DNA of 39,172 nucleotides from Treponema sp. (GTDB lineage Bacteria > Spirochaetota > Spirochaetia > Treponematales > Treponemataceae): the NCBI GenBank assembly GCA_017617145.1, contig JAFZWX010000227.1, forward strand, positions 1 through 39,172. The letters are read 5' to 3'. Below the pieces are notes generated by a model. That model made no database searches, was not told where the DNA came from, and worked only from the letters and a program-made list of their open reading frames with translations. Position 1 is the stretch's first letter, and the number at the start of each line of letters is the position of its first letter. Below, in pieces: positions 1,732 through 35,721 of this stretch. The position numbers were made by a program, and so were the translations under genes.

Positions 1732-1807
1732 GCCTTTTTTTGCCGAAAATAAAAGGTAAAAATATTTTTTTTAAAAAAAGTGCCAGAGAGTGTTAGCGAG
1801 GTTTTTT

Positions 1808-10800: not shown

Positions 10801-13800
10801 TGCAGTAACAACGGCTCCAAAGCTTGCGTATAAAACAACAGAATTTGGTGCAACAGAAGGAAAATATTATTCTGTTCTTTATTCAAAAATAGATTTGGGT
10901 GATCCTAAAATTCCTCTTGCTTATTACATAACAACAAACGAAGATTCGGCACCAGTTGCAAATGCAGAAGGTTTGCTTGGACTTATAAAAACAGATGCAC
11001 AAGGAAAACTGCTTGATGAACTTACAGATTCTGCAAAACAAACATGGAAAGATCTTACAGGAATAAAAACAATAATAGGTGGTCCTGAAAGCAACTACGT
11101 TTGGATTTTTGTAAAAGCAAAGGATGAAAACGGAATATTAGAAATATTTGCAACATTAGGTGAAAGTGCACTTAATCCGCCTGTTTACAAAATAAATACC
11201 AGCGATAAAGGATTACTTGCTTTGTTCAAAAAAGATATTTCTGAAGTTTCTGATACAAATGAATATAAGCTTGAAATTAAAGCAACAGATAATGCAAGTC
11301 ATAATACTTCAAGAAACTTTGATATTAAAATTGACAAGGAAGCTCCTCAAGTATTTATAGACAGTCCTTCTGCAAATGCAGAAATTTATGGAACTGCAGG
11401 TGTTGCTCAAACAAATGTTACTGTACGTGGACGAACAAGCGATTCAAGCGAAGTGTCAAATATTTATCTTGCAGTTACAACCGGGGAATCTGTAGAACCG
11501 GCGCAAACAGGTGCTTCTGCATATAAAGATATTACAAAGAAAAGCGCGCTTTCGTGGACAGCAATCTTTAATGGTGGTCAAGACACTTCTGAAGATGTTT
11601 ATTATACAGATTTGTTCAACAACTATGTAGAGTCTCTTTATGGAGCAGGAACAACAACTAATGCATCACAAAAAGATATTTGTTTGTGGTTGTATGCAGT
11701 AGACAAGCTTGGAAACTCAGGAAAAGAAAATTCTGTAAAGCTTCCTCTTACAATTTTGACTCAAGGAGACAAACCAATAGTTTCAATTACATATCCAACA
11801 AAAGAATCAAAGGTTGGAGGTGTAATTACAATAACAGGTTCTACTTCGATTGCAACAAACGAAGTAGATAAAATTTATGTTCAGATAGATCCTAATTACG
11901 ACCATGAAAATCCGGATTATGATATAACAAATAATGAGTTCGCCAGTGAGTGGGAAACTTCTTTACAAACTCTTATTACTACAGCAACTACAGCAGGTAA
12001 AACAATTGAGTACTCTGTTGAAGATATAAAGAATTCTGAAAATACAGTTGTCGCAAGGGGAATTGTTGCAGGCGGTTCAAAGCAAAGCTGGAATGTTATT
12101 TTGAATGCTGCCTCTGAATTTAATACAGAAGGAAACAGAGATATTGCTGTACGAGCATATGCTATAAGTAAATCAAATAAAATAAGTGAACCTGTAATAA
12201 ACTGGTTTACGCTTGATCCGGATTCTCCAACTTTTGGAAATAATGAACCTTTGACTCTGGTACAGTATTCAGATAATGATGACGGAACAGGAACTGTTAT
12301 AGCAAGTCAACTTTATACACCAGGAATGTGGATTCAAGGTAAATGGTGGCTTACTGGTTCTGTAGAAGATGAAAGTGGAATTGCTTATGTAAAACTTAAT
12401 GATGTAAATCTTGATACTCAGTATTATCAGGTAAAAACAACACCATATAAAGGTTGGAAATTAAACATTCCAGTTGGAAAAGCTATTGATTCCGAAACTG
12501 TTTATGGTCCAAATATTAGGCTTGTTACAAAAGAATCTGGTGGTGAAAAAACAAGTCAGATGGATATAAAATTTTATTATGATAATATTCCTCCAGATTT
12601 TGAATGTACAACTTTAAAATCAGACGATGAATTAGAAGAAGATGAAACAAATACCCTCGTTCAATCTGATGGTGTTTGTGAAATAAAAGGAACTCTCAAA
12701 GAACTTGGAGAACAGAGTGGCTTTAAGAGAATAGCGTTCTATGTAACAAGAACTTTGAACAGTACTAATTATGTAACCGATGTAATGAAAGCCCAAGGTT
12801 CGGGAACCGATAACTGTTATGAACAGAGTTCTCTTTCAAATGACGAAAACTTGTATTGGCAAACTGCAGCAAATTGTACAGCAAAGAATGGAATCGAAAT
12901 TGAAGTTCCAGAAGCTAGTGTTCCAGCCTTTGCACGTACTGGTGGACTTTGCCGTATTAACGATGTTATTTACACAATAAAATCTATTACTGCTGGTGCT
13001 AACGGTAAAAAAATAATTACAATCGATTCGAAGATTGATAATGGAACAGTAGATGTTGATTTTATTCTGGCACAGGTTATTGATAACACAGTTTCTGAGC
13101 TTGGTATTACAACATACTTTGGAGATACAACTCATGGAATCACAAATGATGATGGTGATGAAATGGTTGAAAGCTACAAAGAATCTAGCGGTGAATGGAC
13201 AGTTTCAATCAACTCAAAGAATATAAAGGATGGAACAATTCAGCTTCATTTTGTTGCTTATGATCAGGCTGGAAACAAAACTTATAAAACATACAATGCA
13301 ATAGTTGCAAACAATGCGCCTCGTATTGCAGGTGTAAAGTTTGGAACAGATACAAATGGCAATGGCGATGTTGAAGGTTCAGAATTAAGAACAGGATATA
13401 GCGGTATTTATGCAGTTGAAGGTTTAAACAAAAAACCAAACATTACAGTAAACGGTCAGGCTGCAAACGGAGTAAAAATTTCAAAACTTGCTCTTCCAAA
13501 TAATGGAACAGATATTACTGCAATAGATAACACAAAGAATTCCGTAATGACTGTAAAGGGTGCAATAAAGGTTATTCCAGAAGTTGTTGGTGGTAACAAT
13601 GGTTTAAGCTGGACTTATTCTGTGAACGGAACCAACAAGAGTACAACTGCAAATAGTCTTAACAACACACATAGTGGTAATGACGATATTCGAGCTGAAA
13701 GTGCAACAACAATTTCTATTGATACCTTAACTTTATTAAAAGATATTTCCTCAGATGGAAATACTGTTCTGGGCTTTACTATCTGGGATAAAACAGAAGG

Positions 13801-16800
13801 AACAACTCCAGGAACAGACAGTAACAAAGCAGAACTTCTTCTTAAAGTTAATGTTGAATTACGCGATGAAACACCTCCAACTGCTGGTATAAAACCGTTC
13901 TACTGGGATTCTATTCCTATAGGCGACAAAAACAACAGCAGCGTTGTTTATAAAGACGGAATTGCTTTTGGACACATTGAACTTGAAAAAGATTTACCAG
14001 AAACAGGCTTTGATTATGACGGAACAGACGGACAAGAATTTGACCTTGATCCTAAGGTTTCGGGAGCAATTTACCTTGAAGGTTTTGCACAAGATAATGT
14101 TGCGGTAGAAAAGCTTTATCTTAACTTCCCAGGACTTAGTGGTTTTGAAAACTTTGGACTTGTTGCTCAAAGAGACAGAGAAGATGATTCCGAAACAAAA
14201 GGCCAGATTATTTCAGTTCCAAAATTTGTGGAAAAAGGTGTAGAACTGATATCTGCTACCGAAGAGCTTAAAATTGATGGCAATAAAGAATATAACCTTG
14301 TTCACTGGAAGATAAAGATTGATACATCAAGAATTACAACATCGGCTGCTACAAACGTTCTGGTACAAATAAAGGCAGAAGATCGTGGTAAAGCAACTAT
14401 TGCAAATGGTGGTTCTGGTTACAACTACCAGGGTGCAAAACAATCTGATGTTCCGACTACTTTTGTTTTGGCTAAAAATCAGACAGGCTATAAGCTTGGA
14501 GAAGATGGAAATGTTGAAATGAGCAATGATCGTCCAGTTTACGACAGCGAAAATCAAACCCCAAGTTACCGAATTGATGTTGTACCATATATTGCAAAAG
14601 TTTATACATCTTTAGCATCGCTCAAAAAGAACAACTGGTCTGTATATAACAGAACAGCGCTTGGACATTATCCGATTGCAAGTGATGGAACTGCATATTT
14701 ATACGGATTCAATTTAGGCAATGCAGATAAACTTCCAAATTATGGATCACAAGCTCTTGCAGTGCCGGCAGACGGTTCTGTTTCAAATGCAAATTATTCT
14801 TCCGGTAGTGACTATGCAGCCTATAAGGTTGTAACATTCCCGATTTCTGATGAAATACCATCAGGCCAAATCAGCCTTAAAGTAAACGATGTAGAAACAC
14901 TGAACAACAAGAATAATAATGAAGCCCGCGGTTCATACACTGGTTCTGTAGACTTAGAAACAAATCCAACTGGCGACAAAAATATTTTCACAACATACTA
15001 CTACAACCGTCAGCCTAATGGAGATAATAATAATCGACTTACTGATGATATTGAGATTGATATTTGGGAGATAGATCCTACGGCAGTTTACCCAATGCGT
15101 CAGAAAGGAAGTATTGCACAGGCAATTATGAAGATTAATCCTGTTACAGATCAGCTAGGATTTGCATTTGCGAATGCAGCAGCTTATTTCAGTATGCCAG
15201 GTAAGACTGTTGAGGCGGCAAGGGATACTTCGGCTTCTGCATGGGATGGTCAAAAAGTAAAAGCTTTTAGTAAAATACGTGATTATTCATATACTTATTG
15301 GAATGGTGAACTTGAACCATTTACTTCTGTTGGATTTACCTATGATAAATATGGTTATTCTTATGGAGTTGCAAGTGGTGGGGATATTAACTCTGGAAGT
15401 AACGAAACAGTAGATTGGTTTAGTTTTATGACTGACAGATGGGGTAAGGCTCTCGGTAGTTATTCTGGTGGTGATGATTATGCAAGACATAAGAGTTCAA
15501 AACATGATCAAAATGCGGTTCGTATAGAGACAAATGGTTTGAAAGAAGGGGATGTAGCTGTATTTGAAACAAAACGCATAAAATCTCCTTCAATAGTAGT
15601 TTCTGCCCATGGTGAAATTAATACCTCTGCAGATACAAATGTTTATCTTGCATATTTTGATGTATTAACTGCTCAAATTAGATTTAGGGCAGGTAATATT
15701 GGACAAAAACTTGAAAATGTTGATTCCAATAACTATTCTCCAGCAACTTTCTATCAACTTACTGCCTTTTCAAAATCTAAGACAACAGGTCAGAATTTCT
15801 ATTCTGTAAGTGAAAATATTTATTGGAATCTAACAGATGGTAATAGGGTAAAGATTTATAAAGAACAAGATGGAGAAAAGGTTCTTTTAAGTGAAAAAGA
15901 ATATATTATTTATAATTTAGATTATAATGCAAAAAAATTCGCGCTTCTTTCTACCGATGAAGACGGAAATGTATCAGAGGAATATCCATTATATAACGCA
16001 GACACCTCTAACAAATTGGAAGAGGGTACCTATTATGTGCAGGCAGTTCCAGAAAAGAGCAAAGGTTTCTTTGGTAATTTTACAAATACATATGGAACAA
16101 AATTAAAACTTAAGGATCTTGGAACATCTGCCAGTACTGTAGAAAATCTTGGAATTATTGTTGAAGGAACAACTGCAGGGGAATATCTTTCAATGGGTGT
16201 TATTCCAAAAGATTCAACAGGTGGTATTTCTACAGATGATGTTTTAGTTATTGTTTGGTATGGAGATGATCTTCAACTTCATTACGCATATAATACTACA
16301 CCATCAACAATACGGGGAAATGGTGATACAGATGGTTGGATATCAACAACCCTGTTTACTGGTGATTTATCACAAGCAGGAGAATATTGTCAGCTGGTAG
16401 TAGATGCCAAAGGTGGAATACATATTGCGGGTCTTGACTCAACAAATAGTGATCTTATTTATGCATATATCGCCAAATATAACGAACCAAATAATGTACA
16501 AACTTGTATCGTCGATTCAAGTGGTATAGTTGGCGACAATCTTATGATTGATGTTGCAATGAATGGCAGCGGAACAGACGCAAAAGCAGTTCCAAGAATC
16601 AGCTACTACAATTCATCAACAAAACGACCAAAACTTGCTTATCTGGTTGATACTACACAGGCAAATCCTGCCGGTGCAAGCAATGATATGTTTACAGGAA
16701 AATGGGAATGTTCTGTTATTCCAACTTCAAGCAAAATTGATTTATCAGACAGCGGAAACAAAATCAATGTTGGTGTTTGGAAAGATGATAATGGAGTTAT

Positions 16801-16969
16801 AAAGAACTCAACACCTATAACAAAGGTACAATCTGTGGATCATGTAAACAATTACTATTCAACCTCGTATGGAATTGTTGGTGGCAATGGTTCAGCTAAC
16901 GCTGTTTTGGGTTATATCGTCAAAAAAGATTCAACTACCAACACCATCGAAACCGCCCAGATGCGATAG
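1808..16969 (+). CDS. Giant secreted Ig-like repeat protein, 5053 residues
   Basis: The start chosen is the ATG at 1808 because AGCGAGG sits six bases upstream; an in-frame GTG at 1790 has no such signal. Residues 1-27 form a signal peptide and Cys28 (context SICISC) may be lipidated under the loose spirochaete lipobox. From about residue 35 to 4100 the protein is a chain of Ig-like modules of 80-150 residues. Each ends in a junction such as IDNTPPV, VDKDAPVV or DTTAPDL (about 26 such junctions) and contains ISGTVSD-, ATDKAGN- or TVKDKAGNSS-type strands. This pattern is typical of bacterial Ig-like adhesins and extracellular stalks. The last roughly 950 residues are different: Tyr/Gly-rich, and near the end (from about nt 16,140) segments such as AKGGIHIAG and RPKLAYLVD look like beta-propeller blades. 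No LPXTG, autotransporter barrel or protease motif was seen. A surface adhesin or ligand-binding role is inferred. Confidence 0.85.
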   Translation: MKKNSIYAKAFSLIFLFIFVLVSICISCEIGLGSAIDVEPPSLTIDSPEVDKVIKDKFFIKGTWGDDGTIESLYVILKRTDGNPIDGNVRSAEALKEYKIDGTIEKNLEEKDKGTWKVEINPLDEEKRIIDGTYLATVFIKDKGNHTTSQSVSFTIDNTPPVLILSKPNSVPGDKTMSVYGQRLFLEGSIADSTKETWIEISFYSDEACQEDSLLTTIETGLIAPTDVNSNNAKLAAFDTNLDADLAQEYFDIYRSLTKEDSKTVYSTITVYDTAETCYENEGQELEQETSKDGKIKGNASKTFFISKQLAELITKSQSAGGYGLAPIDIYNVLNGTYELKNSSRSIDAETVKAKLENDDSNLKQNKTVFKMNPQNSPYFTVSGLKALTKTGRDFEKAENGYFVINGAQTLEISVFMGSDNIELVDNDDFYVYLLACDEKGEPLEEDKEENRIKLYSKSNETGSGADKKTYYSVGGKETHKTTSGAYVFTIPIAKNINANPDAEGTNGIIAIPIEYGNYVIRVSGKDNEENPIEPYEPNGYGFHLTTGGSAPELKVEEPADNTLFNKEGDGLTFKGTVKVEEGNPSVSVWNGKTKLVDIPVFPERETEDNAVVFEGSFTAEELKFNTDESPISLIIRAAGAGEVVTDYQKSIWYDGENPLAANIKFSEVTVDAQGKEIVKDVYSNESSYFINNLGKTFTLSGIATDNVGVEKADLKITNKTDESKTITDTSNASTGKWVFKNIDLRSWTGDGATIEITLQDKSGNQSKETLDVIFDVIAPAAEHQIDDSQKDLVFRIGDYANDRGDSDVGGKYSNGTYGSALTMQIRGNYPDNENGSGIKKFYYKVFNNQEVIIDSVKAPETTPVVGTGNDDGKIFFKSLEVLKDYVIANKTETFSPLSENEERFVEYNIKPQNTPANEQNTIDRIGGGTLTNNYVITSKGYVQFRKSITTNFKTTIKGFSEGRNYLVLVAEDNVGNTSVDYAEVPTPENPAVTAIYPCYSLNVDITAPNIPSKQEGTVYTNVTKKKETGEENPDVKVEISGTVSDKSNVINGSSGLKNIVFTSDQNNEKVTLNAASLTGNGTEEDLTLRNWTVDVRPLLSKKGTAIISAKVTDNAGYETSMPVANILVDKDAPVVRITSPSSNTITGTDITLSGTVSDGNGAGLDTTKQMELFYKTNLLNDWEKLADITTAENWTYNLDAKTITQDAENTPLFFMVTATDKAGSGNTGYSETLSITVDRKKPEMNDEKSGIGDQKTAANVNEHWFKTTTLKVFGEYTDFLGSGTTTISYKIGEGNENDLSTTDGTYNINISDFVKGANSITIWATDKAGNKSEETVYNFNIDNELPVIQSVAGPETTQGEDVILTVNIKDENPVKPDVIVKQNGTAIEPTLDVTVSEPSGAGSVWASTVTIPFNSIITTDGTYEFEITVKDKAGNSSASVTKRITRDNVPPVIVITKPESASGAFIQAGSYKFEGTITDITSEIKQAKAELWSVPETGEPVKKDEAAITPNSSDGGKWSWQVYELAAAAYKIKVTAEDTAGNFAVETESPLVYIDNTAPVVTVKSSCSGEAGEEHFDLTDSEVNEIETLVSGKTYYAKGVYSLIVSVDDLNFDSNYDKNEDGIKDLFTITATNNAEEQTFIITPDDNNPRKFTIRPVVYVEGVADYKINDGVATYKINVEDKAGNKADEIVIKVQLDTTGPVVSINKPGEDITKPENSLSESTYSFKIYAGDSGVGVAKLFYAFTTNSEKPADSEWIEESFTDGDRYIEMGLVAGKNPVYTNGKITSLCEGNWYLYAKAQDKSGNETETETIARRAFPVDRANPTLTVSDLSESGENPLSTEIEEATETEEGGYTISGTVQDTNGLAESNAVMIEVDKQEAEAATIDGENWSYKIKTGTTDGKLKSDAPVEVKITATDIAGKTTQKTYILYYDTKAPDLTVSAPVENEPVADSNKSIKGTVSDNGYGIDKIEYVLYKGTITETNETEATTVQSGEKNVTSENFPVEIKGEQWYIKDTATNMPLGTKEGALTLKVIATEKTIQKGTKTYGGRKTAVYRPFYYDKANPVLEENKIGTRGITTKTTFKFKGKAWDSNELDRIEIWCGNTVWKSTDDNSFIELTKATEDPGENKTNWSAEFVVGSNTGINHIPDGTKEFTIIAYDISGKEKQLTRSVVVDTQNPVIDNISVDQTHETEIDDVIWHTSTSLPIEVEASDFGDSGLSKVEYKVGTGDWTPLSFADEYKGTINFASNGEQRFKIKATDVAGNSSDEDENEITVHIDTTAPDLLVLYYSKGTATTETLKAIENTLYLKSNTQITVYGNYKDDQTGVKELTFKLGDSEISENITVKYSTETIENKETILEIENADENSTEKFNSYEDITDKNSIKSWKAVLTPNESKKLSVIGTNRTDRPTEEIKISDITIDKESPVPSNIKLFEITKNEQDEDVTKDAYLKNNNYYVKQADRKFKITGVATDNIGLDSVVLTITKDNTTTTVSRKNSGSPSQWIFTDIDLSSWTDAAEAEATVTVTDKAGNVGTSKINISFDNEVPVFSTGTVGGKENALVNTAWFKDTTLNVSGAFTDTGCGVTTIKYKIGSSGDETSVSTTDGNYNTNISGFNPGTNTLYIWAIDALGNESEQKEYTVQLDNNKPVLEKKTNEFDATYLTNGSKIQKFDFYIKEAESGITNEATEFTLKLGTKTIALTKAVTLENADPTKSLFVLGTKEGTEENTKYPVEIQLGTTAFDNVSGAPSVTVSVKDTAGNISEETLIGTMDIDKTAPVPSFTTPVANAKINKEVTIKGKITEKNTVASISLTATYDTGENIKTNTFTYEKDNNSNTLIFDETEKEWEVTIDTNSVTWNNTNAAQNWSFSLTATDEAGNVATDAVVRSFTIDQNSDRPVIKFSNLDISRMTSTNRIWITKQDLYASVTDDDGEVKAVEISFDGTNWKSEDSKHNKYYTPENGLSYPLPSDKDGEQTIYFKVTDANDTVFTSTLTSNAAVTTAPKLAYKTTEFGATEGKYYSVLYSKIDLGDPKIPLAYYITTNEDSAPVANAEGLLGLIKTDAQGKLLDELTDSAKQTWKDLTGIKTIIGGPESNYVWIFVKAKDENGILEIFATLGESALNPPVYKINTSDKGLLALFKKDISEVSDTNEYKLEIKATDNASHNTSRNFDIKIDKEAPQVFIDSPSANAEIYGTAGVAQTNVTVRGRTSDSSEVSNIYLAVTTGESVEPAQTGASAYKDITKKSALSWTAIFNGGQDTSEDVYYTDLFNNYVESLYGAGTTTNASQKDICLWLYAVDKLGNSGKENSVKLPLTILTQGDKPIVSITYPTKESKVGGVITITGSTSIATNEVDKIYVQIDPNYDHENPDYDITNNEFASEWETSLQTLITTATTAGKTIEYSVEDIKNSENTVVARGIVAGGSKQSWNVILNAASEFNTEGNRDIAVRAYAISKSNKISEPVINWFTLDPDSPTFGNNEPLTLVQYSDNDDGTGTVIASQLYTPGMWIQGKWWLTGSVEDESGIAYVKLNDVNLDTQYYQVKTTPYKGWKLNIPVGKAIDSETVYGPNIRLVTKESGGEKTSQMDIKFYYDNIPPDFECTTLKSDDELEEDETNTLVQSDGVCEIKGTLKELGEQSGFKRIAFYVTRTLNSTNYVTDVMKAQGSGTDNCYEQSSLSNDENLYWQTAANCTAKNGIEIEVPEASVPAFARTGGLCRINDVIYTIKSITAGANGKKIITIDSKIDNGTVDVDFILAQVIDNTVSELGITTYFGDTTHGITNDDGDEMVESYKESSGEWTVSINSKNIKDGTIQLHFVAYDQAGNKTYKTYNAIVANNAPRIAGVKFGTDTNGNGDVEGSELRTGYSGIYAVEGLNKKPNITVNGQAANGVKISKLALPNNGTDITAIDNTKNSVMTVKGAIKVIPEVVGGNNGLSWTYSVNGTNKSTTANSLNNTHSGNDDIRAESATTISIDTLTLLKDISSDGNTVLGFTIWDKTEGTTPGTDSNKAELLLKVNVELRDETPPTAGIKPFYWDSIPIGDKNNSSVVYKDGIAFGHIELEKDLPETGFDYDGTDGQEFDLDPKVSGAIYLEGFAQDNVAVEKLYLNFPGLSGFENFGLVAQRDREDDSETKGQIISVPKFVEKGVELISATEELKIDGNKEYNLVHWKIKIDTSRITTSAATNVLVQIKAEDRGKATIANGGSGYNYQGAKQSDVPTTFVLAKNQTGYKLGEDGNVEMSNDRPVYDSENQTPSYRIDVVPYIAKVYTSLASLKKNNWSVYNRTALGHYPIASDGTAYLYGFNLGNADKLPNYGSQALAVPADGSVSNANYSSGSDYAAYKVVTFPISDEIPSGQISLKVNDVETLNNKNNNEARGSYTGSVDLETNPTGDKNIFTTYYYNRQPNGDNNNRLTDDIEIDIWEIDPTAVYPMRQKGSIAQAIMKINPVTDQLGFAFANAAAYFSMPGKTVEAARDTSASAWDGQKVKAFSKIRDYSYTYWNGELEPFTSVGFTYDKYGYSYGVASGGDINSGSNETVDWFSFMTDRWGKALGSYSGGDDYARHKSSKHDQNAVRIETNGLKEGDVAVFETKRIKSPSIVVSAHGEINTSADTNVYLAYFDVLTAQIRFRAGNIGQKLENVDSNNYSPATFYQLTAFSKSKTTGQNFYSVSENIYWNLTDGNRVKIYKEQDGEKVLLSEKEYIIYNLDYNAKKFALLSTDEDGNVSEEYPLYNADTSNKLEEGTYYVQAVPEKSKGFFGNFTNTYGTKLKLKDLGTSASTVENLGIIVEGTTAGEYLSMGVIPKDSTGGISTDDVLVIVWYGDDLQLHYAYNTTPSTIRGNGDTDGWISTTLFTGDLSQAGEYCQLVVDAKGGIHIAGLDSTNSDLIYAYIAKYNEPNNVQTCIVDSSGIVGDNLMIDVAMNGSGTDAKAVPRISYYNSSTKRPKLAYLVDTTQANPAGASNDMFTGKWECSVIPTSSKIDLSDSGNKINVGVWKDDNGVIKNSTPITKVQSVDHVNNYYSTSYGIVGGNGSANAVLGYIVKKDSTTNTIETAQMR

Positions 16970-27993: not shown

Positions 27994-28701
27994 ATGAACA
28001 GGAAAATTGGTTTATATAAAAAGCTTTATTCTTTTTCGATAGCAATTGTTTCACTCTTTTTTCTTAGCTGTGATTTTATTCCTGGTTTTGCAAGCAGATT
28101 GGATACTCCTCAAGAACTCGAGGTGTCTTCAGTAACTTCGGATAGTGCTGTTGTTTCCTGGTCTGCTGTAAAAAACGCTGTTTATTATGATGTAATGTGG
28201 CAGAGAAAAAATGAAGAGGTTTGGCAAAATGAAATAACTATTTCAACTTCTATACAACTTAATGACCTTTATTATTCACAGGAATATACTGTGCAGGTTG
28301 CAGCGATGCCGGAAAATGATTCACAAAAATATGTTATAAGTGAATATGCAAAAACAAATTTTACTACGCTTGAAGATATTCCGCCACAGGGGCAGTTAGC
28401 ACGTCCTAACAATATACAAGCTGTGTTTAACGAAGATGAATCTGCCATAACTATTTCGTGGGATGCAGTTGCCGAAGCCACTTATTATGATATAGATATC
28501 GAAGGTTATGAAACATATATGCCAGGTGTAGTTTTCAAAACACGTAAAACTGTGGCCGCTAGTAAGACTCAACTTATTTATACAGATAAAATGTCGGGGA
28601 CTAGAATCATTATAAAAGTGGCCGCCCGTAATTCTGATTTTTCGGATTCCTGCCGTTGGTCAAAAGAAGTGTGTCTTGACAAACTTGCTCTAACTCATTA
28701 A
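27994..28701 (+). CDS. Fibronectin-III-domain lipoprotein, 235 residues
   Basis: A signal peptide ends in LFFLSC (Cys26), a good lipobox. Two fibronectin III-like domains follow, with the repeated core SAVVSWSAVKNAVYYDVMW and ITISWDAVAEATYYDIDI. It is a shorter paralogue in style of the preceding lipoprotein, three bases downstream of it, so the two are likely co-expressed and possibly interact. The 3' end carries the -35 box of the aroF promoter (28676-28681) inside the coding region. Confidence 0.8.
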   Translation: MNRKIGLYKKLYSFSIAIVSLFFLSCDFIPGFASRLDTPQELEVSSVTSDSAVVSWSAVKNAVYYDVMWQRKNEEVWQNEITISTSIQLNDLYYSQEYTVQVAAMPENDSQKYVISEYAKTNFTTLEDIPPQGQLARPNNIQAVFNEDESAITISWDAVAEATYYDIDIEGYETYMPGVVFKTRKTVAASKTQLIYTDKMSGTRIIIKVAARNSDFSDSCRWSKEVCLDKLALTH

Positions 28702-28704
28702 ATT
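28676..28704 (+). promoter_or_regulatory. Promoter of the aromatic amino-acid operon
   Basis: A perfect TTGACA (28676-28681), a 17-base spacer and TAAATT (28699-28704). The transcript would begin around 28711, about 17 bases before the leader-peptide start. The -35 box lies within the last codons of the upstream lipoprotein gene. Confidence 0.65.
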
Positions 28705-28727
28705 AATTTTATCTTTTGGAGAACAAA

Positions 28728-28799
28728 TTGAAAGGTAACTTTTATTACAGCGCATATTATTATTACTCTTATTATGCTTCACGCAAGGGCAGTAAGTAA
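28728..28799 (+). CDS. Tyrosine-rich leader peptide of the aro operon attenuator
   Basis: A 23-codon open frame starts with TTG at 28728, with GGAG six bases upstream, and stops with TAA at 28797. Eight of 23 codons are tyrosine, in runs YY, YYYY and YY (28743-28775), with one Phe just before; the tail is Ala-Ser-Arg-Lys-Gly-Ser-Lys. It lies between a promoter and an intrinsic terminator, directly ahead of DAHP synthase and prephenate dehydrogenase genes. By analogy with the his, phe and trp leaders of enterobacteria, ribosome stalling at the Tyr codons when charged tRNA-Tyr is scarce should favour the antiterminator (28794-28806 with 28840-28852). The start codon is unusual but the ribosome binding site supports it. 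Confidence 0.88.
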   Translation: MKGNFYYSAYYYYSYYASRKGSK

Positions 28800-28852
28800 T
28801 TTGTGCAATAAATGTTACTAAACATTGAATAGAACAACCGCACGGATTACTT
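28794..28852 (+). promoter_or_regulatory. Antiterminator pairing of the aro attenuator
   Basis: Bases 28794-28806 (AAGTAATTTGTGC) can pair with 28840-28852 in 13 consecutive pairs, eleven Watson-Crick and two G-U, with a 33-nt loop. The first strand spans the leader stop codon; the second takes most of the terminator's 5' arm and loop. A28842, the single mismatch in the terminator stem, pairs normally here. A terminating ribosome would mask 28794-28800, while one stalled on the Tyr codons would leave it free. AGTAAT (28795-28800) can also pair with ATTACT inside the Tyr codons (28762-28767), a candidate pause hairpin. Confidence 0.8.
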
Positions 28853-28869
28853 CCGCGCGGTTTTTTTTT
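28836..28869 (+). terminator. Intrinsic terminator of the aro attenuator
   Basis: AACCGCACGGA (28836-28846) pairs with TCCGCGCGGTT (28852-28862), ten pairs with one A-C mismatch, around a five-base loop. It is followed by an uninterrupted run of nine T (28861-28869). It ends 24 bases before the aroF start. Confidence 0.93.
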
Positions 28870-28893
28870 GGGCGTGGCGCCCTTGGAGGAATT

Positions 28894-29892
28894 ATGATAG
28901 CAGTATTAAAAGCAGGTGCAACTCACGAGCAGATTGACAATCTTATTGAATGGTTCAAGGAGCAGGGACTCAAGGTTCATCTTTCGGAAGGTGATTATAA
29001 AACCATTGTAGGTTTGATTGGTGATACTACAAAGATTGATATTGACCTGCTTAAGGGTTTGGATATTATTGAATCAGTTACACGCATTACTGAGCCGTTT
29101 AAAAAGGCAAACAGAAAGTTTCACCCTGAAGATACTATTGTTGATGTCAGCGGTGTAAAAATTGGCGGCGGAAACTTTGCTTTTATTGCAGGTCCTTGTT
29201 CTGTAGAAAGTCGTGATCAGATTATTGAAGTTGCGCAGGCTGTTAAGGCAAGTGGTGCAAAGCTGCTTCGTGGCGGTGCATTCAAACCTAGAACAAGTCC
29301 GTATGATTTTCAGGGACTTAAAGCAGAAGGTCTGGAATTGCTGCTTGAGGCAAAGAAGGCAACAGGCATGCCGATTGTTACAGAAATCATGAGCCCTGCC
29401 CATATTCCTCTTTTTGAAAATGTAGATTTAATTCAGGTTGGCGCACGCAACATGCAGAACTTTGAGCTGCTCAAGGAGTTAGGTAAGCTTAACAAACCAA
29501 TCCTTCTTAAGCGCGGACTTGCCAACACAATGAAAGAATTTTTGATGAGTGCCGAATACATCATGGCCGGCGGAAACGAAAACGTTATTTTGTGTGAACG
29601 CGGAATCCGAACTTACGAAACTTATACCCGTAATACGCTGGATCTGTCTGCGGTTCCTATGCTTCATGAACTTACACATCTTCCTATTATTGTTGACCCT
29701 TCTCATGCAACTGGAATTGCCCGCATGGTTAAGCCTATGGCAATGGCCGCTGCTGCCTGTGGTGCTGACGGAATTATGATTGAAGTTCATAACAATCCGC
29801 AGAAGGCTTTGTGCGATGGAGCTCAGTCTCTTACCCCTGAACAGTTTGATGATGTTGCAAAACGTGTAATGAAGATTCGCGAGGTGATTTAA
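28894..29892 (+). CDS. aroF: 3-deoxy-7-phosphoheptulonate (DAHP) synthase
   Basis: Condenses phosphoenolpyruvate with erythrose 4-phosphate, the first step of the shikimate pathway. The ATG at 28894 follows GGAGGA; upstream in-frame codons run through the terminator and are not used. The 332-residue protein has an N-terminal ferredoxin-like regulatory domain (about 1-75, MIAVLKAGATHEQID) and a class-I-beta catalytic barrel: AGPCSVES, RGGAFKPRTSPYDFQG, GARNMQN, KRG, ERGIRTYE, DPSHATG, MIEVHNNP and LCDGAQSL. These include the metal-ligand Cys, His, Glu and Asp. In related enzymes the N-terminal domain gives tyrosine or phenylalanine feedback inhibition. Transcription is controlled by the Tyr-codon attenuator directly upstream. 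Confidence 0.96.
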   Translation: MIAVLKAGATHEQIDNLIEWFKEQGLKVHLSEGDYKTIVGLIGDTTKIDIDLLKGLDIIESVTRITEPFKKANRKFHPEDTIVDVSGVKIGGGNFAFIAGPCSVESRDQIIEVAQAVKASGAKLLRGGAFKPRTSPYDFQGLKAEGLELLLEAKKATGMPIVTEIMSPAHIPLFENVDLIQVGARNMQNFELLKELGKLNKPILLKRGLANTMKEFLMSAEYIMAGGNENVILCERGIRTYETYTRNTLDLSAVPMLHELTHLPIIVDPSHATGIARMVKPMAMAAAACGADGIMIEVHNNPQKALCDGAQSLTPEQFDDVAKRVMKIREVI

Positions 29893-30741
29893 GTGAGTGA
29901 TGCAAAAATGAAAACTGTTGGCGTTGTTGGTCTTGGACTTATTGGTGCTTCGTTTGCAAAGGCTTTTAAAGAAGCCGGTCACAAGGTACTTGCTTATGAC
30001 AAAGATTCGTCTGCCATTTTGATGGGAAAAATTGCAGGCTTTGTTGATGGTGAGCTAACTTCTGAAAATCTTAAGAGCTGCGGTGTTGTTTTGATTTGTA
30101 TTTATCCGCAGGGAACAATTGATTATGTAAAAGCCAATGCGGCCAATTTTGCAAAGAATACGCTTATAATGGATACCGGTGGAATTAAGCGTGTTGTGTG
30201 CAAAGAATGTTTTAAGATTGCTGCAAAGAGTGATTTTATTTTTGTTGGAACACACCCTATGGCAGGAAATAAATATTCGGGACTCAAGCATTCAAGAGCA
30301 TCGCTTTTTAAGGGCGCTCCGCTTGTAATTGTACCTCCGACTTTTGATGACATGAAGCTGATTGACCGTGTAAAAGAAGCAATGGCTCCTGCAGAGTTTG
30401 GAAGCTTTATGCTTTCGCACGCCGACAAGCACGACAAGATGATTGCCTTTACTTCGCAGATGGCACATGTTGTTTCAAACGCTTATGTAAAAAGTCCAAC
30501 GGCAAATGAACACCACGGTTTTTCTGCCGGCAGCTACAAAGATCTTACCCGAGTTGCCTGGCTCAACGCACCAATGTGGGCCGAACTTTTTATGGAAAAC
30601 AAGGATAATCTTGTAAATGAAATTGACAGTTTGATAAAAGAACTGACAAAATATAAAAAAGCTATGGTTGATGATGACCAGGAAAAATTGCAGAAACTGC
30701 TTGAAGAAGGTAGTCAGCGCAAAGCAGAGCTTGATGGGTAA
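29893..30741 (+). CDS. tyrA: Prephenate dehydrogenase
   Basis: Oxidatively decarboxylates prephenate to 4-hydroxyphenylpyruvate, the tyrosine-specific step. The start is the GTG at 29893, abutting the aroF stop, with GAGGTGAT about five bases upstream. 282 residues: the Rossmann motif GVVGLGLIGAS (9-19), an Asp after the second strand (AYDKD) that usually signals NAD+ preference, the catalytic-region GTHPMAG, and SHADKHDKMIAFTSQMAHVV. No ACT or chorismate mutase domain is attached; the mutase is fused to AroC four genes later in the operon. The C-terminal helix is charged. Its presence as second gene explains why the attenuator reads tyrosine. Confidence 0.94.
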   Translation: MSDAKMKTVGVVGLGLIGASFAKAFKEAGHKVLAYDKDSSAILMGKIAGFVDGELTSENLKSCGVVLICIYPQGTIDYVKANAANFAKNTLIMDTGGIKRVVCKECFKIAAKSDFIFVGTHPMAGNKYSGLKHSRASLFKGAPLVIVPPTFDDMKLIDRVKEAMAPAEFGSFMLSHADKHDKMIAFTSQMAHVVSNAYVKSPTANEHHGFSAGSYKDLTRVAWLNAPMWAELFMENKDNLVNEIDSLIKELTKYKKAMVDDDQEKLQKLLEEGSQRKAELDG

Positions 30742-30745
30742 AAGA

Positions 30746-30831
30746 GATTCCCGGGTCAAGCCCGGGAATGACAAAGTGTTTTGCTGAGAAAAACAAAGTT
30801 TGTCATTGTCGGGCTTGACCCGACAATCCCG
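30746..30831. repeat. Inverted pair of hairpin repeats between tyrA and aroB
   Basis: Two related units face each other. Unit 1 (30746-30777) contains ATTCCCGGG-TCAAG-CCCGGGAAT; unit 2 (30795-30831) contains ATTGTCGGG-CTTGA-CCCGACAAT. Each is a perfect 9-bp stem with a 5-base loop. Comparing unit 1 with the reverse complement of unit 2, two stem positions differ and both differences are compensated on the other arm. The units can also pair with each other into a longer stem. There is no T-tract, so simple termination is unlikely; mRNA processing or stability is possible. Confidence 0.85.
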
Positions 30832-30851: not shown

Positions 30852-31877
30852 ATGGAACGAATAACAGTAAAAGTAAAAAATCAATATAACGTTCTCGTAG
30901 GAAGTGGCTTACTTAGTCAGAGCGGTGAACTTATCCGAGGGGTGGATTCCCGCATTCAAAAATTATTCGTGGTAAGCGATTCAAACGTTGCTCCTTTGTA
31001 CTTGGAAAAATTACGAGATGTTTTGCAGTCTGCCGGTTTTGAAGTTTTCAGTTTTGTTTTTGCAGCAGGCGAGCAAAGTAAAAATCTTGAAACAGTTGGT
31101 CAGATTTTGGGTCAGCTTGCACAAAACGCCTTTACCCGAACCGATGCTCTTGTTGCCTTGGGCGGTGGAGTTACCACAGACATTGCAGGTTTTGCTGCTT
31201 CCATTTTTTTGCGTGGAATAAAAGTTTTTCAGATTCCAACTTCGCTGCTTGCACAGGTTGATGCTTCTGTTGGCGGAAAGACCGGTGTTGATTTACCTCA
31301 GGGAAAAAATCTTGTTGGTGCTTTCTGGCAGCCTTCTCTTGTAATTATTGATACTTCGTTGCTTGCAAGTCTAAGTGATGTTTTGTTTATGGAAGGAATG
31401 GCAGAGGTAATTAAGTATGCGTTTATCTGCGATAAAAATCTTTTTGAAAAATTGCAGCATAAGGTGAGCAAAAGTTCGCCCGAGCTGGAAAGTGTTGTTG
31501 CAAGATGTGTTCAAATAAAAGCCGACATTGTCAGCCAGGACGAACACGATAACGGCTTACGTCAGCTTTTGAACTTTGGTCATACAATTGGTCATGTAAT
31601 CGAAGCCCGCAGTAACTTTAAAGTTTCGCACGGATTTGCTGTCGCCAAGGGAATGGAAAGAATATGCCGAAAGAGTGATATTCATGATGACCTTGTGTCG
31701 CTTTTGAAATTGTACGACTTGCCTTGCGATGACGACATTTCTGCCGACCAGATAATTCAGGGAGTAATGAACGACAAGAAAAAACGCGGTGGAAATATAA
31801 CGATTGCGTATGTTGCAAAAATCGGTTCAGGCGAACTTCGCACAATGGATTTGCAGGAGTTCAAAAATTATCTATGA
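30852..31877 (+). CDS. aroB: 3-dehydroquinate synthase
   Basis: Converts DAHP to 3-dehydroquinate with bound NAD+ and a divalent metal. 341 residues, near the family's usual 340-370. Key segments: VVSDSNVAPLY, GGGVTTDIAGFAASIFLRG (NAD-binding glycine run), IPTSLLAQVDASVGGKTGVD, KNLVGAFWQP, EGMAEVIKYAFI, and the metal-ligand region LNFGHTIGHVIE with SHGFAVAKGM. All expected motifs are present. The ribosome binding site is weak (AAAAAGAA). The last codons overlap the aroA start (ATGA), indicating coupling. The hairpin-repeat pair just upstream separates it from tyrA. Confidence 0.96.
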   Translation: MERITVKVKNQYNVLVGSGLLSQSGELIRGVDSRIQKLFVVSDSNVAPLYLEKLRDVLQSAGFEVFSFVFAAGEQSKNLETVGQILGQLAQNAFTRTDALVALGGGVTTDIAGFAASIFLRGIKVFQIPTSLLAQVDASVGGKTGVDLPQGKNLVGAFWQPSLVIIDTSLLASLSDVLFMEGMAEVIKYAFICDKNLFEKLQHKVSKSSPELESVVARCVQIKADIVSQDEHDNGLRQLLNFGHTIGHVIEARSNFKVSHGFAVAKGMERICRKSDIHDDLVSLLKLYDLPCDDDISADQIIQGVMNDKKKRGGNITIAYVAKIGSGELRTMDLQEFKNYL

Positions 31878-33097
31878 ATTACAAAATAGAAATTCCCAGC
31901 CTTAAGTTAGATTTTACAGTTCCTCCTTCAAAGTCCGTTGTGCACAGAAATCTGATTGTTCAGTTTTTGCGCGCGGTATTGGACGGACAACTTAATAAAA
32001 CAAAGGCATTTTTTTGGGAGCCTGAGCAGACAGATAATGATGATATTCTTGCAACCCGTGCCTGTCTTAAAGCCTTGTACGAAGGCTCTCAAAATGATGA
32101 AGAAATAATTTACATGCCTTGCAACGAAAGTGGTTCAACACTACGTTTTATGATCAGTGTGGGTGCGGCATTTTTGAATTATATGGGTCTTGCACAAAAA
32201 AAGAAGCTCGTGTTTTTACCCAAAGGCCGCTTGATTGAACGCCCGCTTGAACAGCTTATTGTATGTCTTGCAAAACGCGGGGTAGATGTTGTAGTTGATA
32301 GGGCAGCCGGAACAGTTACAGTTAGCGGTGTGCTTACTCCTGGATGTTTCGAAATTGAAGGAAATGTTTCATCGCAATATATTTCGGGACTTTTGATGGC
32401 ACAGATTGTTTTGCCGGGATTTTCTGTAGAGCTTAAGGGCGAGCTTGAATCAAAGGGGTATGTTGAATTAACAAAACGTGTTGTTGAAGAAAATGGAATA
32501 CCAAATGAAGGCGACTGGTCCAGCGCAGCCTTCCTGTTGTGTCTTGGAGCCCTTACCCCAAACAGCCAGATCATCTTACACGGCTTGAACAAATCCTCCG
32601 CCCAAAAAGACAAAATCATTTTGGAAATTTTAGAGCAGCTTGGAATACACGCAATCTGGAACGACGATACAGTTTCTTTAAAATCAGAGCATTCTGAAGC
32701 TCCTGCAACACTAGAGCTTGATGCCACCGATTATCCCGACATTGTTCCTTACATCGCAATTGTTGCTGCTGCGTTTACAAAAGAAACAAAAATCAAAAAT
32801 ATCAGCCGACTTCATTTTAAGGAATGCGACAGGGTAGAGGCAATAATTCAAGCCTTGGCCGCTGTTGGGGTTAGCGCAGTTGAAAAGGACAGCATACTCA
32901 TAATTCAAAATCAGAATTTCCAGAACAAAAAATCAGACGAAGCAATAGAAATAAAAACCTTTAGCGACCACCGCATTGCAATGACAGCAGCCCTTGTAGC
33001 CGCATGGACAGGCCGCCCGGTTTTGATAGATAATAAAGAATGCGTAAATAAATCCTTCCCGGGATTGTGGGAGATAATTGAAAATGCAAAACTATAA
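31874..33097 (+). CDS. aroA: 3-phosphoshikimate 1-carboxyvinyltransferase (EPSP synthase)
   Basis: Transfers the enolpyruvyl group of phosphoenolpyruvate to shikimate 3-phosphate. 407 residues. Recognisable sites: VPPSKSVVHRN, ESGSTLRFM, PKGRLIERP, SSQYISGLLMAQ, the ESKGY helix start, GDWSSAAFLL, TDYPDIVP (catalytic Asp), FKECDRVEAI and SDHRIAMTAAL. Between ESKGY and EGDWSSAAF only about 17 residues are present, where the E. coli enzyme as I recall it has about 24 more. The N-terminal part has a compensating insertion near AVLDGQLNKTKAFFWEPEQ. All listed active-site motifs survive, so it is probably functional. It overlaps aroB by ATGA and aroC by 14 bases. Confidence 0.94.
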   Translation: MNYKIEIPSLKLDFTVPPSKSVVHRNLIVQFLRAVLDGQLNKTKAFFWEPEQTDNDDILATRACLKALYEGSQNDEEIIYMPCNESGSTLRFMISVGAAFLNYMGLAQKKKLVFLPKGRLIERPLEQLIVCLAKRGVDVVVDRAAGTVTVSGVLTPGCFEIEGNVSSQYISGLLMAQIVLPGFSVELKGELESKGYVELTKRVVEENGIPNEGDWSSAAFLLCLGALTPNSQIILHGLNKSSAQKDKIILEILEQLGIHAIWNDDTVSLKSEHSEAPATLELDATDYPDIVPYIAIVAAAFTKETKIKNISRLHFKECDRVEAIIQALAAVGVSAVEKDSILIIQNQNFQNKKSDEAIEIKTFSDHRIAMTAALVAAWTGRPVLIDNKECVNKSFPGLWEIIENAKL

Positions 33098-34490
33098 TTG
33101 GTTTACCGGCAACAAAATAAAACTCGGAATCTACGGCGAATCTCACAGCCCAAGCATTGGTGTTTGCCTTGAAGGTCTGGACTACGACAAACTGGACACC
33201 ACAGCCCTTTCCGCATTTATGAAGCGACGCGCCCCTGGTCAGAATGCCTGGTCTACTCCACGCAAGGAAGAAGACGCTGTTGTTGTTGATGTACTTCAAA
33301 AAGGTTTATTCAAAGCGCATATTGATAACACAAATATCAAACCACATGACTACAGTAATCTTCTTATAACTCCACGTCCAGGTCACGCAGATTTTACGGC
33401 ACGACTTAAATATAGTGAGGATTTTAAATCTTCCGGCGGAGGTGCTTTTTCGGGAAGACTTACAGCTCCTTTGTGCATTGCAGGTTTTTTAGCAAAATCA
33501 TTTCTTGAAGAAAAAAGCATAAAAATTTTTGCGCATATAAAATCAATTGCCGGTGTAAAGGATGATGTCTACAATTTTGATAACCGCACAAACGAAGATG
33601 ATTTTTTAAATAAGCTTGAAGAAGTTTCAAAAAAAGAATTCCCGGTAATTGATGACAAAGCCGGCGAACAGATGAAAGAAAAAATTGCCCAGGCAAGAGA
33701 AAAGGGAGACTCTGTTGGCGGAACAATTGAAGTTGTAATTCAAGGCATGCCAGGCGGAATTGGCGGCCCGATTTTTGAAGGCATAGAAGCCAGAATCGCT
33801 GAGCTTTGTTTTGCTGTTCCAGCCTGTAAAGGCGTCGAATTTGGAAATGGATTTGAGGCAGCAGAATTAACAGGGTCAACGAATAATGATTGTTTCAACT
33901 TCGAAGGGCCGCAACTAAAATTGCAGACCAACCGCTGCGGCGGCATTCTTGGCGGCATAAGTGTTGGCGGAACCGTAGCTCCAATTGTTTTTGATGTAGC
34001 CGTAAAACCAACCCCAACAATTTCTAAAGAACAGGCAACCGTAAATCTTGAAACAAAAGAAAACACAACGATAACAGTAGGCGGCCGTCACGACCCATGC
34101 ATTGTTCCAAGAGCAGTGCCAGTGTATGAAGCAGTGGCTGCGCTGGCTCTGGCGGATGAAATGCTTTCTAATACGACCCTGAAATCAGCGGTTGCTGAGC
34201 CTGTCGAAGCACAGGGACCGCGGTTAGATCAAGAAGATCTTGCTTCTCTTCGCACACAAATAGACCAGGCCGATGAACAGCTTCTTGCAGCTCTTGCAAA
34301 ACGAATGGAAGTAGCAGAAAAAATTGGGTTATTAAAAAAGCAGGAAGGAAAGCCTGTTTTGGACACTTCACGCGAAGCACAAAAACTTGAATCCATTTAC
34401 GAAAAAACAGACGAGCGTACAAAGCCTTACATAAAGGATATTTATAAAAAATTGTTTGAAGCATCTAGGGATTTTCAAAATAAGTTGTAG
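33084..34490 (+). CDS. aroC: Chorismate synthase fused to AroQ-type chorismate mutase
   Basis: 468 residues from the ATG at 33084; GGGAG lies ten bases upstream, and an in-frame TTG at 33078 is less likely. Residues 1 to about 365 are chorismate synthase, an FMN-dependent enzyme that makes chorismate from EPSP: GIYGESHSPSIGV, RRAPGQN, PRPGHADF, GGGAFSGRLTAP, GDSVGGTIE, TNRCGGILGGISVG and GGRHDPCIVPRAVPV. Residues about 382-468 are a type-II (all-helical) chorismate mutase: LRTQIDQADEQLLAALAKRMEVAEKIGLLKK, then a DTSREAQKLE helix, with the usual basic residues. It thus catalyses two consecutive steps, EPSP to prephenate. The linker (about 369-380) is encoded by a short dispersed repeat at 34189-34220. 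Confidence 0.94.
   Translation: MQNYNWFTGNKIKLGIYGESHSPSIGVCLEGLDYDKLDTTALSAFMKRRAPGQNAWSTPRKEEDAVVVDVLQKGLFKAHIDNTNIKPHDYSNLLITPRPGHADFTARLKYSEDFKSSGGGAFSGRLTAPLCIAGFLAKSFLEEKSIKIFAHIKSIAGVKDDVYNFDNRTNEDDFLNKLEEVSKKEFPVIDDKAGEQMKEKIAQAREKGDSVGGTIEVVIQGMPGGIGGPIFEGIEARIAELCFAVPACKGVEFGNGFEAAELTGSTNNDCFNFEGPQLKLQTNRCGGILGGISVGGTVAPIVFDVAVKPTPTISKEQATVNLETKENTTITVGGRHDPCIVPRAVPVYEAVAALALADEMLSNTTLKSAVAEPVEAQGPRLDQEDLASLRTQIDQADEQLLAALAKRMEVAEKIGLLKKQEGKPVLDTSREAQKLESIYEKTDERTKPYIKDIYKKLFEASRDFQNKL
34189..34220 (+). repeat. Short GTCGAA-type dispersed repeat encoding the AroC-mutase linker
   Basis: CGGTTGCTGAGCCTGTCGAA followed by GCACAGGGACCG. The reverse complement contains CTTCGACAGGCTCAGCAACCG, which matches 18 of 21 bases of the repeat at 35203-35223. 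In both genes it ends CAGGGACCG in the same frame, encoding Ala-Gln-Gly-Pro. I recall similar short repeats being scattered in many bacterial genomes. Confidence 0.7.
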
Positions 34491-34500
34491 GTAGCATAAG

Positions 34501-35721
34501 ATGAAATTTGGCGTTTTAGGAAAAAGTTTACCTCACACATACTCACCTCAAATACATAAGGAATTTGCGGATTACGAATACACAGTCCTTGAACGTACAG
34601 AAGACCAAGTGCATGCAATTTTTGAAGGTGCCGAAAATCTGGACGGTTTTAATGTAACAATTCCGTATAAAAAATTGGCAGCCAGCTTTTGCAAAGAACT
34701 TTCTCCTGCTGCAAAAGAAATTGGTGCTGTGAATACGGTTGTTGCTCTTCCTGGCGGAGGTTTTAGCGGCGACAACACAGATGTGTTTGGTTTTACCTTT
34801 ATGCTCACAAATGCAGGGATTGATGTTGCTGGTAAAAACTGCCTGATTCTTGGAACTGGCGGAGCGAGCGCTGCAGTGAACTATGCCCTCAAACAAATGG
34901 GAGCAGGCAGTATAAACTTTTGTTCCCGCACAGGACAAATTAATTATGAAAATGTTTACAAGGTTGCAGCAGACACACAAATTATTATAAACACAACACC
35001 AGTTGGAATGTTCCCCGAAATTGATAACTCGCCGGTTGACCTCTCACATTTCAAAAATCTTGAAGCCGCCGCAGATATAGTTTACAATCCGTCGCGCACA
35101 AAGTTTTTACAGCAGGCACAGGAGCTAGGGCTTAAAACAGCCGGTGGATTGAGTATGCTGGTAGCACAGGCTTATAAGGCGAGTGAGATTTTTAAGAAGG
35201 CCCTTCGACAAGCTCAGGGACCGCAGATGGACGAGCCACAACAAGAAGAAATCAACACTGTAATCGAAAAACTCCAAAACCAAATGCTCAACATCACCCT
35301 AATCGGTATGCCAGGCAGCGGCAAAACAACTCTTGGTAAAAAACTCGCCAAAGAACAAAACCGCAAGTTCATAGACTTGGACGATGCCTTCAAAGAAGAA
35401 TACGGCATCAACCCAGCCCAGTGCATCACCCAGAAAGGTGAAGACGAGTTCCGCAAAATGGAAACACAAATTGCAAAAAAAATCCTTCCGCAATCTGGCT
35501 TAGTAATTGCAACCGGCGGCGGTATAGTGACCCGCAAAGAAAACTGGTTCTATTTGCGCGCCAATTCCAAAGTTATTTACATTGAACGCCCGCTTGAGTT
35601 CCTTTTAAAACAGGACACTTCTAACAGGCCGTTGAGCCAGAATAATAGAATTGAAGAATTATATAAAAAGAGAACTCCTCTTTACGAACAGCTGTGCGAT
35701 GAAAAGTATACGAGGTTTTAG
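34501..35721 (+). CDS. aroE: Shikimate dehydrogenase fused to shikimate kinase (AroE-AroK)
   Basis: 406 residues. Residues 1 to about 232 are shikimate dehydrogenase: GKSLPHTYSP, FNVTIPYK (catalytic Lys), GAVNTV, GDNTDVFGF (catalytic Asp), the NADP-binding LGTGGAS, NTTPVGM and GGLSMLVAQA. Residues about 262-406 are shikimate kinase: P-loop LIGMPGSGKTTLGKK, FIDLDDAF, GEDEFRKMET, ATGGGIV and NRPLS (lid). It therefore converts 3-dehydroshikimate to shikimate 3-phosphate in one chain. The linker contains the short repeat at 35201-35224. The kinase part is about 145 residues and stops at DEKYTRF, roughly 20 short of the usual C-terminus; the stop lies 24 bases before a GC-rich repeat element. ATG 34501 has AGGTA upstream. 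It is the last gene of the operon. Confidence 0.94.
   Translation: MKFGVLGKSLPHTYSPQIHKEFADYEYTVLERTEDQVHAIFEGAENLDGFNVTIPYKKLAASFCKELSPAAKEIGAVNTVVALPGGGFSGDNTDVFGFTFMLTNAGIDVAGKNCLILGTGGASAAVNYALKQMGAGSINFCSRTGQINYENVYKVAADTQIIINTTPVGMFPEIDNSPVDLSHFKNLEAAADIVYNPSRTKFLQQAQELGLKTAGGLSMLVAQAYKASEIFKKALRQAQGPQMDEPQQEEINTVIEKLQNQMLNITLIGMPGSGKTTLGKKLAKEQNRKFIDLDDAFKEEYGINPAQCITQKGEDEFRKMETQIAKKILPQSGLVIATGGGIVTRKENWFYLRANSKVIYIERPLEFLLKQDTSNRPLSQNNRIEELYKKRTPLYEQLCDEKYTRF
35201..35224 (+). repeat. Short GTCGAA-type dispersed repeat in the AroE-AroK linker
   Basis: CCCTTCGACAAGCTCAGGGA plus CCGC; the ends CCCT and AGGG are inverted. It matches the reverse complement of the repeat at 34189-34220 (18 of 21) and encodes Leu-Arg-Gln-Ala-Gln-Gly-Pro between the two enzyme domains. 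Confidence 0.75.

Follow-up and report, generated by a model that had tools for sequence, protein, structure and literature searches.

The window, a stretch of 39,172 nt of Treponema DNA, carries an aroF-tyrA operon that is directly preceded by a short reading frame full of tyrosine codons and by a hairpin with a T run, raising the question of whether entry into aromatic synthesis is set here by the charging of tRNA-Tyr. From the sequence, predicted folds and comparison with related loci, we consider it very likely that positions 28676-28869 are a ribosome-mediated transcription attenuator that senses Tyr-tRNA and sets the expression of aroF, tyrA and the shikimate genes.

A tyrosine-rich leader and two competing folds

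An earlier note on this DNA had described a TTGACA promoter, a Shine-Dalgarno (SD) site, a 23-codon leader with eight tyrosine codons and a stop codon, all of which agree base for base with the sequence (Table 1). The leader peptide, MKGNFYYSAYYYYSYYASRKGSK, has eight Tyr and one Phe in its 23 codons, and an alternative in-frame TTG at 28716 would give a 27-codon version of the same ORF. The ORF is short and could be translated, having a start codon, a ribosome site and a stop codon shortly 5' of a terminator (36 nt from the leader stop), and its codon run is for the product of the operon (8/23 Tyr, with tyrA as the second gene). Among window-type elements, i.e., those of the window and of eight treponemes, the promoter-like site is located 23-25 nt 5' of the leader start in 9/9 and an SD-like site is present in 9/9. 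The leader ORF is presumably translated in vivo.

When 28676-28893 was shuffled 5000 times with dinucleotide composition kept, a terminator arose in 40 cases and an ORF with at least eight Tyr in none, and among the 1587 short ORFs (10-40 codons) of the whole window, the leader ORF alone, from TTG 28716 or 28728, has at least six Tyr. These figures bear on another reading, namely that two transcription units are separated here by an ordinary terminator, constitutive in action, and that the Tyr-rich ORF before it arose by chance. The promoter-like site overlaps the end of an upstream fn3 ORF (27994-28701), and the natural terminator of that gene, which ends just upstream, could fall here. However, besides the absence of the Tyr ORF from all shuffles, such a terminator would separate the promoter-like site at 28676 from aroF, and the arrangement recurs before aroF in relatives despite different DNA further upstream (as judged by eye). 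We regard a constitutive terminator as highly unlikely.

Table 1. Features of the leader region and of the operon behind it.
Feature	Position	Strand	Basis
Promoter-like site, TTGACA (28676-28681), 17-nt spacer, TAAATT (28699-28704)	28676..28704	+	sequence; consensus scan, 10/12 matches
Leader Shine-Dalgarno site, GGAG	28718..28721	+	sequence; 6 nt 5' of TTG start
Leader ORF, TTG start, 23 codons, stop TAA 28797-28799	28728..28799	+	sequence; retained in relatives
Antiterminator 5' strand, AAGTAATTTGTGC, over leader stop codon	28794..28806	+	sequence
Small predicted hairpin between the antiterminator strands, AATGTT-ACTA-AACATT	28811..28826	+	folds
Intrinsic terminator, stem 28836-28845 / 28853-28862, T run 28861-28869	28836..28869	+	sequence; hairpin -15.7 kcal/mol
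Antiterminator 3' strand, GCACGGATTACTT, overlapping terminator 5' arm and loop	28840..28852	+	sequence; 13/13 pairs
aroF, DAHP synthase	28894..29892	+	NF006421, TIGR01361, PF00793
tyrA, prephenate dehydrogenase, GTG start directly after aroF	29893..30741	+	PF02153, PF20463
aroB, 3-dehydroquinate synthase	30852..31877	+	TIGR01357
aroA, EPSP synthase	31874..33097	+	PF00275; TIGR01356 below cut-off
aroC-chorismate mutase fusion	33078..34490	+	TIGR00033 and PF01817
aroE-shikimate kinase fusion	34501..35721	+	PF08501, PF01202; TIGR00507 below cut-off

The earlier note had also proposed a 13-bp antiterminator in competition with a terminator followed by nine T, and both are confirmed in the sequence. 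Strand AAGTAATTTGTGC, which as claimed spans the leader stop codon, pairs with GCACGGATTACTT at all 13 bases, two of the pairs being G-U, while the terminator at 28836-28862 reads AACCGCACGG / ATTACTT / CCGCGCGGTT and is followed by the nine T. The two folds are mutually exclusive, with 28840-28852 used in both. The sole mismatch of the terminator, A28842 opposite C28856, is paired with U28804 in the antiterminator, again as had been stated. A simple terminator scan reported the window hairpin on the minus strand only; on the plus strand, the A-C mismatch presumably hid it. At the position equivalent to the small hairpin 28811..28826, loci L002 and L003 have hairpins of different sequence (by eye).

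With ample charged tRNA-Tyr, a ribosome would translate as far as the stop at 28797, where it would sit on 28794-28806, upon which the terminator would form and transcription would stop ahead of aroF. With scarce Tyr-tRNA, the ribosome would instead stall on codons 6-16 (28743-28775), leaving 28794-28806 free to pair with 28840-28852, and the polymerase would read through. We folded nascent RNA ending just 3' of the antiterminator, with an assumed ribosome footprint that, counted from the first base of the A-site codon, reaches 18 nt upstream and 11 nt downstream. For the window, the predicted probability of the antiterminator is 0.41 or 0.66 when no ribosome is present, depending on which of two sets of transcript ends is chosen, and 0.93-0.98 when a ribosome sits on any of the six Tyr codons that were tried. 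Averaged over the core aromatic codons, it is 0.97 as compared to 0.00 with the ribosome at the stop, so that under the assumed footprint the antiterminator is predicted to be masked by a ribosome at the stop and not by one on the control codons. This bears out, in predicted folds, the earlier claim that a ribosome finishing the peptide would block the antiterminator strand and one stalled on Tyr would free it. At full-length equilibrium with a stalled ribosome, the terminator fold (-29.1 kcal/mol) is 1.8 kcal/mol better than the antiterminator fold (-27.3 kcal/mol), and the switch must therefore be kinetic, the antiterminator forming first. The sequence elements, their recurrence in relatives, the exclusivity of the two pairings and the genes that follow are observed; that the leader is translated, that ribosomes stall on it, that the antiterminator forms kinetically and that the operon responds as a whole is what we presume.

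As for the operon, tyrosine synthesis is indeed among the downstream genes, but not at the end of the operon as the earlier note had it: tyrA is the second gene, not the last. Its product scores below the cut-offs of the NCBIfam prephenate dehydrogenase models. Between tyrA and aroB is a gap of 110 nt with two GC-rich inverted repeats (30747-30826) that have the look of a repeat element, and it is for this reason that control of the genes beyond tyrA is something we infer. The nearest named relatives of the window aroF are those of Treponema sp. RGIG8218, a water-buffalo rumen MAG (97 percent identity), Treponemataceae bacterium RUI404 (89 percent) and an uncultured Treponema (97 percent), which makes a Treponema, likely one of the rumen, the probable bearer of the window. 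Elsewhere in the window, 1790-16969 is a single ORF of 5059 codons that is Thr/Ser-rich and has a signal-like hydrophobic start.

Control of aroF might instead lie with a T-box or with some other riboswitch that binds tRNA or a metabolite, and tyrosine genes are T-box-regulated in other species according to PMC1262725. However, an Rfam search, T-box included, gave no match at gathering score at the window element or at 16 loci related to it, of which two are from treponemes and 14 are of clostridial type, leading us to reject T-box identity, and the predicted 5' UTR ahead of the leader start is only approximately 17 nt. We give riboswitch control next to no credence.

Leaders and pairing in related loci

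A DAHP synthase search in 200 genomes of the genus gave a match in 163. Upstream regions were taken from 28 new loci, 68 of 86 further listed standalone genes and 12 fused genes, and the 450 nt upstream of each gene were scored for a short ORF with at least seven aromatic codons in 12; L110 and L070 were omitted from the scoring, as their upstream sequence is missing. Such an aromatic leader is present at all nine window-type aroF, in 7/7 regions of the genus of L002, at 61/89 native Treponema standalone aroF (77/89 with at least six codons) and at 58/76 clostridial-type aroF (60/76 with at least six), leaving 28/89 native and 18/76 clostridial-type regions under the cut of at least seven. Dinucleotide shuffles of the upstream regions reach this cut in 0.2-2.1 percent. 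Judged by their titles, almost all members of the clostridial-type set are Clostridia; a Bacteroidales MAG (L034) and one further bacterium (L064) also belong to it. The aromatic-leader system is not peculiar to the window organism. The exact 21-base Tyr run, among the matches listed, occurs once each, at aroF, in G088, G089 and G001.

By the same score, no aromatic leader was found in the 12 upstream regions of DAHP synthase (DAHPS)-prephenate dehydratase (PheA) fusions, and just one in the 29 prephenate dehydratase (PDT) loci, again long fusions, from which L216 was omitted; three genomes (G015, G049 and G156) are counted in both sets. For trpE, leaders were seen in 0/28 regions (2 with at least six codons), two of 30 loci being below the length limit; this negative is a weak one, as trpE may sit within longer operons and its start is approximate wherever the flanks of a locus were cut.

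Other Spirochaetota have an aromatic ORF in 12/20 loci, a raw count in AT-rich DNA, and a terminator near aroF only in L288. This locus, from another spirochaete, has a leader and terminator of clostridial type, and its aroF groups with clostridial-type rows in the tree described below; it looks like a second transfer. L291, L294 and L306 carry a 23-codon leader before aroF that ends in a run such as IYAYYFFYYGV; there, a small hairpin covers the leader stop, and a terminator close to aroF was not found.

Requiring a terminator and at least six aromatic codons gave 136 elements from 181 regions (9 window, 7 L002, 75 native and 45 clostridial-type), the ORF picked for some native elements (e.g., L112) beginning within an apparently longer leader. 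We paired the stretch after the aromatic run with the terminator arm of its own element and, in 5000 permutations, with the arms of other elements. None of the permutations was as good as own pairing in native Treponema or in the clostridial-type elements (0/5000 each), and 9/5000 matched it in the L002 genus; the nine window-type elements resemble one another closely, and among them own pairing was no better than permuted (569/5000). In a preceding round, just 58/89 elements paired better than their mononucleotide shuffles at z below -2. A motif, AGYRATTTGTGCTGCA, fits the antiterminator 5' strand of the window and is found with at most four substitutions in 25/45 clostridial and 11/16 treponeme elements, and the pair A28798-U28848 is replaced by G-C, with both sides changed, in L003 and L002. 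A column-wise count of covariation (MAFFT, 36 motif-bearing sequences) gave 64.6 percent of cells paired as compared to 62.8 in shuffles, 54/1000 of which were as high, and sliding the partner by +1 in this alignment gave more double changes. We think that misaligned 3' arms hampered the count.

Of the features that the earlier note proposed to look for in relatives, runs with Tyr are present in 136/136 elements, and the arrangement is conserved with pairing kept despite sequence change, clearly so by permutation in native and clostridial-type elements and also in the L002 genus, but not within the window type. The antiterminator overlaps the stop codon in the window; in 18/75 native elements, it begins over 26 nt ahead of the end of the stop codon. 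The predicted drop in antiterminator probability between stalled ribosome and ribosome at the stop is at least 0.3 in 9/9 window, 6/7 L002, 52/75 native and 33/45 clostridial-type elements (100/136); it is below 0.3 in 36/136, one native element being reversed. Among the 18 native elements whose stop is distant, a ribosome at the stop masks the antiterminator weakly, a median of 0.52 remaining, and only four have a drop of at least 0.3. The stop codon is well downstream of the antiterminator in L089, L091, L100 and similar native elements. In these, the first leader codons, CGCAAC, are complementary by eye to GTTGCG past the stop, which may constitute a further pairing.

The leader might also act as a functional small protein, or as a ligand-sensing arrest peptide, rather than as a codon counter. 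Its frame is kept, with length changes that are codon-sized (by eye), and the Sinorhizobium trp leader peptide is described as acting in trans in PMC7298713. Residues outside the Tyr/Phe run, however, vary among groups (by eye), and it is the run, the antiterminator pairing and the terminator that recur, which makes a functional peptide very unlikely.

The native Treponema leaders start differently from those of the window type. Only 2/75 have an SD-like site, as compared to 74/75 for the aroF gene that follows. Of the native leaders (among L089-L111 and L112-L191), 38/75 have a good promoter, and 35 of those 38 start 5-10 nt past the -10 box (1.5 percent in shuffles), while window-type leaders start 23-25 nt past it. 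In the L002 genus, a promoter was found for four of seven elements (L194-L197), and these likewise start 5-10 nt past the -10 box. Since the promoter finder accepted only -10 boxes with A as their second base, it missed the promoters of L002 and L193, which were read by eye. Native leaders thus appear to be leaderless, i.e., to start at the mRNA 5' end. The RNA of the Sinorhizobium trpL leader begins at its ATG, according to PMC7298713. A leaderless native version would raise the testable question of how a ribosome lacking an SD site keeps pace with the polymerase. Judged from these elements, the aroF of native Treponema, mostly followed by tyrA, has its own version of the switch.

Tyrosine, phenylalanine and the origin of the proposed switch

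The elements were selected on aromatic codons and not on Tyr. Nevertheless, Tyr is present in the leader core of all 136 terminator-bearing elements, and Phe is absent from 16/75 native cores; the signal that never varies is therefore Tyr, often joined by Phe. The earlier note had held that relatives that lack the Tyr codons and keep the terminator would speak against it, and no such relatives were seen among the 136. Tyr exceeds Phe in 9/9 window, 4/7 L002, 56/75 native and 24/45 clostridial-type elements, and Phe exceeds Tyr in 0, 2, 10 and 18, respectively. Mean core contents in the window type are 7.4 Tyr and 1.3 Phe, and none of the other three groups is as Tyr-pure. Since Phe codons join Tyr in most relatives, 'Tyr only' best fits the window type.

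A leader that senses Tyr and Phe charging jointly, with the Tyr excess of the window due to local drift in composition, would account for the cores of the L002 genus (mean 4.6 Tyr and 3.7 Phe; the L002 leader peptide is MTFTAYYNTFYFYSFYYFTNSRG) and of the clostridial type (4.2 and 3.9), which are nearly as rich in Phe as in Tyr. Against this stand the predominance of Tyr in every window-type core, its presence in all 136 elements and the Phe-less native cores. Moreover, the second gene in the window is tyrA and not pheA, and in native Treponema a same-strand tyrA follows aroF in 14/17 loci examined (in one across a gap of approximately 1.1 kb). The separate native DAHPS-prephenate dehydratase fusion has no leader in 12/12 regions and 28/29 loci. 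General aromatic sensing is in our view improbable, and tyrosine sensing remains our preferred reading. Many native Treponema (L172-L183, L200-L229) have this second DAHP synthase fused to prephenate dehydratase, in frames of mostly approximately 615-730 aa, and many therefore seem to have one entry enzyme for Tyr and another for Phe.

Where the operon and its switch came from was approached via an AroF tree, a quick maximum-likelihood tree of 111 rows with SH-aLRT support only and a long-branch warning for other rows, in which 71 of the 77 loci of clostridial type are represented; its native rows number 17, with one protein present twice. The window and L002 types form one set (9 rows, support 99) inside an 83-row set (95) that otherwise consists of clostridial-type sequences and three other spirochaetes. 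Native Treponema AroF is separate from this set, in 21 rows together with four of the L002 genus (99). In 12 clostridial-type operons compared, tyrA is beside aroF in 10, and aroB and aroA come next in all 11 with enough sequence. The tree and the clostridial operon order therefore suggest that the operon was probably transferred together with its switch from Clostridia, a direction that we infer. Clostridial origin of the operon without the switch was considered and rejected, because aromatic leaders are also present in the clostridial relatives, which have the antiterminator 5' strand in common with the window.

Relation to known attenuators

Classical leader-peptide attenuators respond to Trp, Phe, His, Leu, Ile/Val or Thr, and regulation by Tyr is usually exerted by T-boxes or repressors. 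In the enterobacterial pheA/pheL, pheST and trpL systems, a stalled ribosome frees the antiterminator and a ribosome at the stop favours the terminator; the window would follow the same logic, but those leaders use Phe or Trp codons. The aroR-aroF attenuator of Corynebacterium glutamicum was reportedly described by Neshat et al. in 2014. Searching the open-access literature, which omits most subscription papers, we found no description of an attenuator with a Tyr-run leader.

In PMC11802643, the pheA/pheL, pheST and trpL attenuators are named and E. coli aroF is placed under the repressors TyrR/TrpR; an attenuator for E. coli aroF was once hypothesised, according to PMC8632094. Two described systems come closest. 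One is aroR-aroF of C. glutamicum, where, as in the window, a leader peptide with aromatic codons precedes the DAHP synthase gene aroF and attenuation is described as ribosome-mediated (PMC11802643; predicted in PMC4046766). This leader, from another phylum, contains Phe-Tyr-Phe and is reported to respond to Phe limitation and to be insensitive to Tyr. The window leader lacks Phe-Tyr-Phe and has a Tyr run, with its eight Tyr and one Phe. The other, a uORF of Acholeplasma, uORFC-13-1, also precedes aroF just 5' of a terminator, as the window uORF does, and has 24 representatives with a possible promoter and RBS; however, its U run encodes at least one Phe, it is confined to Acholeplasma and environmental sequences, and a Tyr run is unmentioned in the passages of PMC8632094 that bear on it. 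In bacilli, leader-peptide attenuation has replaced T-boxes in Firmicutes by means of His leader peptides, but with His codons before hisS/hisZ, and aroF and tyrosine are absent from the main text of PMC2965389.

On balance, we lean towards the view that Tyr forms a leader-peptide attenuator class of its own, at aroF-tyrA of gut and rumen Clostridia and Treponema, that crossed phyla with its operon and is leaderless in native Treponema. If true, the Tyr-run leader would fill a gap among the amino-acid attenuators and would be a clean case of a regulatory RNA crossing phyla with its operon, and it would suggest how common gut and rumen bacteria control entry into aromatic synthesis.
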